Part shown: piece after piece, positions 57,081 to 58,772 of the stretch
How positions within the stretch are numbered: position 1 is the first letter of the stretch
How the letters are laid out: the number at the start of each line of letters is the position of its first letter
Assembly (NCBI GenBank): GCA_016872555.1
Contig: VGZO01000025.1
Coordinates: 1 to 62,599, forward strand
Direction: 5' to 3'
Source of the DNA: Planctomycetota bacterium
GTDB lineage: Bacteria; Planctomycetota; Planctomycetia; Pirellulales; UBA1268
Length of the DNA: 62,599 nucleotides
Position numbers and translations under genes: made by a program
The notes under the pieces: generated by a model
The model's database searches: none
What the model was told of the DNA's origin: nothing
The model's input: the letters and a program-made list of their open reading frames with translations, nothing else

Positions 57081-57350
57081 GCTGGCGTAGGGCGGCGGGT
57101 ATGCGCCTCTTCGGCGCCCCAGCCGGTTGCGTCTTGAAGCCGGCATCGGGCAGGAGCTGTTGCCGTAGCGGGCCGGGCGAGCGGATTGATCGGCCCCCGG
57201 CTCCGCTCAATTGCCGAAGGGGGCTGTCGCAGGGCAGGCGTGGGATCGACGGAGGGCGCCACCCTTACGGCCCAAAGTGAGGCTCGGCGAGGTCACGCCC
57301 CGCGGCCTCGATGCCGCCTAAAACCCCTCTGGGGGGGCAAAAACAGGCAA

Positions 57351-57407
57351 TCACCAATCTGGTGAGCCTCACCAAAGTGATGAGTCCCGGGCTAACCAAA
57401 ATGGTGA
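57351..57407. promoter_or_regulatory. Three direct copies of a 15-bp dyad upstream of the PEP-CTERM gene
   Basis: TCACCA-ATC-TGGTGA (57351-57365, perfect), TCACCA-AAG-TGATGA (57369-57383, one mismatch) and TAACCA-AAA-TGGTGA (57393-57407, one mismatch) share the form T(C/A)ACCA-N3-TG(G/A)TGA. Starts are 18 and 24 bp apart. They lie 122-178 bp before a sigma-54-like promoter, where activators of that system normally bind. Confidence 0.65.
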
Positions 57408-57528
57408 CTCGGGGTTCGCAAGGGAGCCATTTCCGGACCCTTTCTCAGGCCGGAAATAATTCCGCAAAGTCTTTCCATGAATGGGCTTACGAATTTTTTC
57501 CGTTCATTTTCGAGGGCTGGTTTCGGAT

Positions 57529-57545
57529 TTGGCACGGTCCCTGCA
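57529..57545 (+). promoter_or_regulatory. Sigma-54-type promoter of the PEP-CTERM gene
   Basis: TTGGCACG-GTCC-CTGCA matches the -24/-12 consensus TTGGCACG-N4-TTGCA at all but one of the 13 fixed positions. GG (57531-57532) and GC (57543-57544) are exactly 12 bp apart, the diagnostic spacing. Transcription would start near 57556, giving a leader of about 68 nt to the ATG at 57624. Sigma-54 control of PEP-CTERM genes through PrsR-type activators is known in proteobacteria. Confidence 0.65.
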
Positions 57546-57623
57546 CTGCCTATGGGCGTCAGCAAGTCGGTTGGAAACCCAACACCCGTCTTCACCACCG
57601 CCCTGTCAGCCAAGGACCGTCCC

Positions 57624-58772
57624 ATGCGCATCTCGCTCGCCACCATGCTCTCCCGTCGCGTTTGCCACCTGGCTGCCGTCGCCTTGGCGATGTGCGCTCT
57701 GCCTTGTGCAGCGGCGACCGTTACCTGGAACGGAAACGGCGCCAACAACAATTGGAGCACCGGCGCCAACTGGGTCGGAGGCACTGCTCCCGCCGGGACG
57801 GGGGCCGGCGACACGCTGATCTTCGGGAGCGGAACCAACCGCCCGACGACGATCAACACCGTCAACGACTTTCGGATTTCGGCGACGTCCGGGGCAGCTC
57901 TACGGTTCACGTCGGCGGTGAATTACTCGCTGAGCGGTTCGTCGGTCGTCCTCGCCGGCAATGTCTCGCAGACGGCGGCGTCGTCGGTGGCGATTGCCAA
58001 CGACATCAAGATGTCCGGAGTACGTACGTTTGCGTTGACGAACGCGACCGGCACGATCAACGCCTCGGGCGTGATCTCCGAGACGGGGGGATCGGCCAGC
58101 CTGACCAAGACAGGCCCCGGCACGCTGATCCTCGGCGGCAACAACACCTATACCGGCGACACGCTCCTCCAAGGTGGTACGACGATCATCAACGGCACGA
58201 ACGCCGCCTCGAACGTCCTGGTCAGTTCCGGTGCCACGCTGCGTGGTGTCGGACGTGTTGGAAACGTTCTCGTCGAGGGTGCGGTGCGGGCGGGCACCAA
58301 CGGCAGTAGCGGAATCCTCAACACCGGTTCGTTGACACTCCTGGATACCGCATCCTCGATCTTCAACATCTCGGGTACGACCCAGGGCTCGACATACAAC
58401 TCGATCAAGTCCAGCGGCAACGTGGACTTCGGCCTGTCGACCTTGATCCTCAACCTTCCGTCCAGCACGAAGCTGCCCAACTACTCCTCGTACAAGCTGT
58501 TCGATGCCCCCTCATACTCGAGCAATATCGGCGGCATCCCGAACGTTTCTTACCTCGGTCAGGACTTGGCGTTCGAGGACAAGGGCAACGGCCAGTGGGA
58601 GGCATACAACGCCACGATCGAGCAGGCGGTGAGGTTCGATGCCACTACCGGAACGCTGACGGTGGTGCCGGAGCCCTCGTCAATCGTGCTGGCGACGATG
58701 GCCGGTGGCATGGCCGGAGTCTTCGGGATCCGCCGCCGTCGGCAGGGACAATCCAAGGTGGCCAACGGGTGA
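57624..58772 (+). CDS. PEP-CTERM protein with autotransporter-type beta-strand repeats
   Basis: This is a 382-residue exported protein. A signal peptide (H-L-A-A-V-A-L-A-M-C-A-L-P-C-A-A-A) leads into T-V-T-W-N-G-N-G-A-N-N-N-W-S, the usual start of planctomycete beta-helix proteins. The motif L-T-K-T-G-P-G-T-L-I-L-G-G-N-N-T-Y-T-G-D-T is the autotransporter-associated beta-strand repeat. The C-terminus has V-P-E-P-S-S-I-V-L-A-T-M-A-G-G-M-A-G-V-F-G-I-R-R-R-R, a complete PEP-CTERM sorting signal processed by an exosortase. Many Thr/Asn/Gly residues fit a surface or matrix protein. The start is the ATG after the predicted sigma-54 leader. Confidence 0.9.
   Translation: MRISLATMLSRRVCHLAAVALAMCALPCAAATVTWNGNGANNNWSTGANWVGGTAPAGTGAGDTLIFGSGTNRPTTINTVNDFRISATSGAALRFTSAVNYSLSGSSVVLAGNVSQTAASSVAIANDIKMSGVRTFALTNATGTINASGVISETGGSASLTKTGPGTLILGGNNTYTGDTLLQGGTTIINGTNAASNVLVSSGATLRGVGRVGNVLVEGAVRAGTNGSSGILNTGSLTLLDTASSIFNISGTTQGSTYNSIKSSGNVDFGLSTLILNLPSSTKLPNYSSYKLFDAPSYSSNIGGIPNVSYLGQDLAFEDKGNGQWEAYNATIEQAVRFDATTGTLTVVPEPSSIVLATMAGGMAGVFGIRRRRQGQSKVANG

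Follow-up and report, generated by a model that had tools for sequence, protein, structure and literature searches.

A predicted sigma-54-dependent promoter with three upstream activator sites ahead of a planctomycete PEP-CTERM gene

We analysed a stretch of 62,599 nucleotides from a Planctomycetota bacterium (contig VGZO01000025.1; hereafter, the window), in which an open reading frame starting with the ATG at 57624 lies 3′ of hisI, across an intergenic region of 543 bp. This gene (57624–58772, + strand), the predicted target of the regulation described here, encodes a secreted PEP-CTERM protein with one autotransporter-type repeat (TIGR02601) and a C-terminal PEP-CTERM domain that exceeds the cut-offs of two models (20.5 bits vs. 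16 for TIGR02595, and 30.5 bits vs. 20.7 for PF07589). Upstream of it, we identified three 15-bp dyads, to which no strand is assigned: TCACCAATCTGGTGA at 57351–57365, which is a perfect inverted repeat, TCACCAAAGTGATGA at 57369–57383, and TAACCAAAATGGTGA at 57393–57407. All three are predicted activator sites, and their letters agree with the original prediction, which had placed dyads at 57351, 57369 and 57393. The near-consensus −24/−12 promoter that had been proposed ahead of the gene is present as well, at 57530–57545 (+ strand). This element, TGGCACGGTCCCTGCA, contains GG at 57531–57532 and GC at 57543–57544 with 10 nt between them, and shows a single departure from TGGCAC-N5-TTGCW (C for the first T of TTGC), as expected of a sigma-54 promoter; scores of −24/−12 elements were obtained with an approximate matrix drawn from general knowledge, not with a published one. 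The dyads start 137–179 nt 5′ of the −24 element, within the range of roughly 80–200 bp taken for activator sites, and the spacer between dyads and promoter is 122 nt. Transcription is predicted to start at about 57556, which would yield a 5′ leader spanning 57556–57623 (+ strand); this leader has no match in Rfam. Its beginning, from GGGCGTCAGCAA to CGGTTGGAAA (57554–57577, about 24 nt), is nearly invariant in four species, and the remainder of the leader varies.

The window contains 3 sites that differ from TCACCA-N3-TGGTGA in at most one position, compared to 0.017 in each Markov-simulated window, and close pairs of dyads occurred in none of 60 simulated windows with the same dinucleotide content. 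A sigma-54 match as good as TGGCACGGTCCCTGCA is expected 0.1 times per window by simulation. These counts exclude chance as the cause of the dyads and the promoter. A scan of the whole 4.47-Mb genome for TNACCANNNTGRTGA gave 7 matches on the forward and 3 on the reverse strand, three of these sites being the dyads of the window, whereas the reversed control of the pattern gave 0. The consensus of the dyad is TCACC(A/G)-N3-(T/C)GGTGA, with T in 72% and G in 9% of the sites at position 1 among 64 sites chosen with at most 2 mismatches. Single dyad sites were also observed on contigs C2, C10, C29 and C39 of the same genome.

The genome encodes 24 PEP-CTERM tails. The strict −24/−12 pattern has 13 matches in the whole genome, three of which (on C25, C4 and C107) lie immediately 5′ of PEP-CTERM genes, and a fourth PEP-CTERM gene (C3:129377) is preceded by a slightly weaker match. 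Because the reversed pattern has 19 matches in this genome, most of the 13 strict matches represent background, and it is their location that counts. A second dyad module, with its promoter at C6:93874, consists of TCACCAAAACGGTGA, TCACGATCTTGGTGA and TCACCAAGATGGTGA followed by TGGCACGAGGGGTGCC, and precedes a gene for a 169-aa protein (C6:94112–94621; L048:6113–6622) and then a PEP-CTERM gene. Separately, an amtB-like ammonium transporter gene (C21:48380, L072) has a sigma-54 promoter with the palindrome GTCACCGG-N5-CCGGTGAC upstream; we rejected this palindrome as an instance of the same site, its spacing (TCACCGG-N5-CCGGTGA) being different from that of the dyad.

Comparison with relatives shows that the dyads and the promoter are conserved together. 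Paired dyads were found in 13 of the 396 genomes of the order, 11 of them in the family of this bacterium, and paired matches to the reversed control in none of the 396. In three congeneric species (G284, G275 and G124), the orthologous PEP-CTERM gene is preceded by dyads whose positions relative to the −24 element are −179, −161 and −137 (to within 1 bp), and the half-sites of the dyads and the core of the promoter are kept, whereas the intervening DNA has diverged. In the congeneric alignment, from which the conservation of dyad 2 also derives, the half-sites of dyad 1 are kept in 4 species, dyad 3 retains TCACCA in all three sister species, and TGGCACGG-N-C-N2-TGCA of the promoter is invariant in 4 species. 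Beyond this gene, dyads with −24/−12 elements precede PEP-CTERM genes in three genera, with four such genes in G239, one in G136 and one in G025. At the level of sequence, comparison thus establishes the predicted sites and promoter, their pairing, their conservation and their link to PEP-CTERM genes. In genus g3 (L100, L101, L102, L103 and L104), we observed dyad clusters (TCACCAAAATGGTGA and others), with offsets of 0/20/35 in several. These clusters are located 200–550 bp 5′ of DoxX, dehydrogenase and PEP-CTERM genes, and several have no recognisable −24/−12 promoter; given these promoterless clusters, the protein that binds the dyad may have other roles, too.

The 169-aa protein encoded at C6 provides a test of the association that does not depend on the dyad. 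The protein was aligned and its relatives were then sought by protein alone in named genomes, which yielded 34 loci (L361–L394), nearly all from genomes titled as Planctomycetota MAGs, with some titles pointing to lakes. A good −24/−12 element is present upstream in 28 of these loci, and a dyad (at most one mismatch) accompanies a sigma-54 match in 26 of the 34, that is, in 26 of the 28 with a promoter. The dyads recur at distances of about −218, −199 and −117, and the shuffle null at these loci gave 0 of 680. At 16 of the 34, the next 2.5 kb or so downstream contain a PEP-CTERM open reading frame. Together with the congeneric loci and those in G239, G136 and G025, this answers positively the question whether the dyad is enriched at other PEP-CTERM genes, and conservation and the loci in other genera support the central proposal of the original prediction, a sigma-54 promoter with upstream activator sites serving a planctomycete PEP-CTERM gene. 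The AlphaFold2 model of the 169-aa protein has a (beta-alpha)5 fold (mean pLDDT 78.5, about 92 in the core) that matches CheY-like receivers and the receiver of NtrC1. Since a Pfam scan left the protein unrecognised, and the alignment of the family does not clearly show the acidic pair and the lysine that a functional receiver has, it may be a pseudo-receiver.

We weighed other explanations of the dyads against a sigma-54 enhancer. Chance clustering of the sites, or a REP-like mobile palindromic repeat with no role in transcription, would account for their palindromic and clustered nature, and the promoterless clusters in g3 do look repeat-like; however, only 0.017 sites are expected per window, copies per genome are few, and the register to the promoter is fixed across genera, so that we give this explanation practically no weight. 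The same g3 clusters, standing before DoxX, dehydrogenase and PEP-CTERM genes without a −24/−12 element, are what would be seen if the dyads were operators of an ordinary repressor or of a sigma-70 regulator that overlap a sigma-54 promoter by accident. Such an accident is improbable given that the dyad and the −24/−12 element occur together at a fixed distance at 26 of the 34 loci with a receiver-like gene and, in different genera, at many PEP-CTERM loci, and that dyads 120–220 bp upstream occupy the position of an enhancer rather than that of an operator.

A sigma-54 promoter before a PEP-CTERM gene, as in Proteobacteria (PMC1569441 and, for RpoN-dependent pepA, PMC9850573), is also what would be found if the planctomycete had acquired the proteobacterial PrsR/PEP-CTERM-box system. 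In the PrsK/PrsR system, a 17-nt box ending in TTTACA lies about 63 nt (32–92) before the promoter (PMC1569441). The planctomycete arrangement resembles it in that PEP-CTERM genes often stand alone as single-gene units behind a long intergenic region and have a sigma-54 promoter with an upstream activator motif that is sometimes repeated, but its box consists of TCACC(A/G)-N3-(T/C)GGTGA dyads with a spacer of 122 nt vs. about 63. The genome encodes no PrsR above the TIGR02915 cut-off (best score 377.3 bits vs. 502.6), and neither TTTACA nor TGTAAA occurs in 57081–57624. On the TIGR02915 score, the motif and the spacer length alike, the link to PrsR that had been suggested for this locus fails, and acquisition of the proteobacterial system is very improbable.

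The closest resemblance in the DNA is to the enhancers of NtrC, whose box in E. coli is TGCACCAnnnTGGTGCA (PMC8743547). The dyads share with it the core CACCA-N3-TGGTG with the same centre, they occur in several copies 100–200 bp upstream of a −24/−12 element, and the candidate activator considered below, OG6, has an NtrC-like HTH. They differ from the full NtrC box, TGCACCA-N3-TGGTGCA, in that an outer T...A directly flanks the core instead of TG...CA; moreover, the candidate activator is without a receiver, and the targets are PEP-CTERM and receiver-like genes rather than nitrogen genes. Sigma-54 activators that are without a receiver, such as PspF, combine an AAA+ domain containing GAFTGA with a Fis-type HTH. 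OG6 is like PspF in all these respects and is presumably likewise controlled in trans, but no PspA-type inhibitor was seen here, and one of the targets is the receiver-fold protein, a hint, though a speculative one, of feedback on the activator.

To identify candidate activators, we collected the enhancer-binding proteins (EBPs) of 12 genomes, including the 11 of this genome, and placed them in a tree. OG6 (C58:7317–8495) is an EBP with GAFTGA and without a receiver, and among the 11 it has the HTH with the best score against that of NtrC (76, followed by C47 with 73; the reference, PDB 1ntc, is a 3-Ala mutant). It is present in genera g1, g2, g3, g4, g8, g10 and g12; of these, g1, g3, g4, g8 and g10 yielded dyad/sigma-54 modules. 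In exact-dyad loci from genomes that are without OG6, one each from G143, G076, G183, G211 and G059, no promoter match of at least 13 was found. The association of dyad counts with OG6 is weak (Fisher p = 0.03; rank test p = 0.0005) and about as strong as that with the sister activator, OG5 (p = 0.022); exact dyads are missing from some genomes that have OG6. Counts of this simple kind do not distinguish OG6 from OG5 well, and OG6 is therefore the foremost candidate for the EBP acting on the dyads rather than a demonstrated one; we regard this assignment as somewhat favoured. It is possible, with a lower probability, that the module is the same but that the dyads are bound by C47:7980, OG5 (C6:48108) or OG1 (C31) and that OG6 acts elsewhere. 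C47:7980 is an NtrC-like protein with a receiver domain whose HTH is nearly as NtrC-like as that of OG6, but it has orthologues also in G076, where the single dyad is not accompanied by a promoter; for OG1, the EBPs placed in the tree included no copy from G287 or G171. Although the presence of OG5 fits the counts of exact dyads to about the same degree as that of OG6, OG5 is disfavoured as the dyad binder: it is missing from g10, which has both dyad/sigma-54 modules and OG6, and it follows a different box, GGNGCGAWTCGCNCC, far better. A further EBP, OG2 (C3), was rejected as the activator for its wrong distribution.

We conclude that 57351–57545 is, with high probability, a sigma-54-dependent promoter with an upstream three-site enhancer for an NtrC-type EBP, most likely OG6, that drives the PEP-CTERM gene. 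From the general working of sigma-54 promoters, binding of the activator, DNA looping and dependence on sigma-54 in vivo would be expected. The EBP would bind the TCACC(A/G)-N3-(T/C)GGTGA dyads as dimers, which would oligomerise while the DNA loops to bring them to the RNA polymerase–sigma-54 waiting at 57530–57545; at the expense of ATP, the EBP would then open the polymerase complex, and transcription of the gene at 57624 would begin near 57556. This activator would also drive the conserved operon in which the small receiver-fold gene comes first, often with another PEP-CTERM gene, the copy in this genome being that behind the promoter at C6:93874. In this model, OG6 would act on the dyads of the window and OG5 on GGGGCGATTCGCCCC.

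Where a PEP-CTERM gene of this genome has a sigma-54 promoter, the box ahead of it is in most cases not the TCACCA dyad but the palindrome GGNGCGAWTCGCNCC, which is usually paired and lies 110–270 bp 5′ of the −24/−12 element. Exact GGNGCGAWTCGCNCC occurs at three sites in the genome, all 5′ of PEP-CTERM promoters (on C3, C4 and C75), and with one mismatch at 53 sites vs. 2 for the control; exact sites in relatives number up to 31 per genome. Promoters with a box of this type were found on C2, C4, C13 (two), C3 (two), C7, C75, C107 and C19, the last with receiver-like proteins (loci C2:16935, C3:129484, C3:133078–133176, C4:97134, C7:98165, C13:14689, C75:5728, C107 (L046) and C19:69634). OG5, an EBP without a receiver (C6:48108), is present in all 35 family genomes with at least 2 exact GGNGCGAWTCGCNCC sites, counting a fragmentary copy in G239 as present, vs. 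3 of the 37 others (Fisher p = 2 × 10−17). We tentatively suggest, as a reading that is rather less than even in probability, that this freshwater planctomycete family has two parallel sigma-54 PEP-CTERM regulons, one of the TCACCA dyad and OG6 and the other of GGNGCGAWTCGCNCC and OG5, each with its own receiver-less activator, and that both include detached receiver-fold proteins possibly feeding back on the activators.

Control of PEP-CTERM genes by sigma-54 was previously associated with Proteobacteria: in the study of Haft et al. (2006), the motifs were common to Proteobacteria only, the box was found nowhere else, and no PrsR/K/T was listed for Rhodopirellula (PMC1569441). PEP-CTERM is not mentioned in a survey of sigma-54 regulons from 2025 in which Planctomycetia were included, and our literature search, whose coverage was incomplete, found no paper tying planctomycete PEP-CTERM genes to sigma-54. 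The predicted control in Planctomycetota, with different boxes and activators, suggests that enhancer-dependent control of PEP-CTERM genes arose more than once. If the two regulons are real, they would represent a system, of evolutionary origin separate from PrsK/PrsR, that controls the sorting of proteins to the cell surface. With the boxes, regulons can be predicted in many lake planctomycetes that have not been cultured, OG6 and OG5 being the two named candidate activators.

Two further observations concern the GGNGCGAWTCGCNCC box. Between the two sigma-54 promoters of the divergent PEP-CTERM genes C13:14557(−) and 14815(+) (L035) lies a single set of GGNGCGAWTCGCNCC-type sites, apparently shared by both genes. 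Beside OG5, and divergent from it, lie CheR-, CheW- and sensor-like genes (C6:42340–47669, L115) that look chemosensory from their sequences, and this cluster may possibly provide the input to the GGNGCGAWTCGCNCC regulon.
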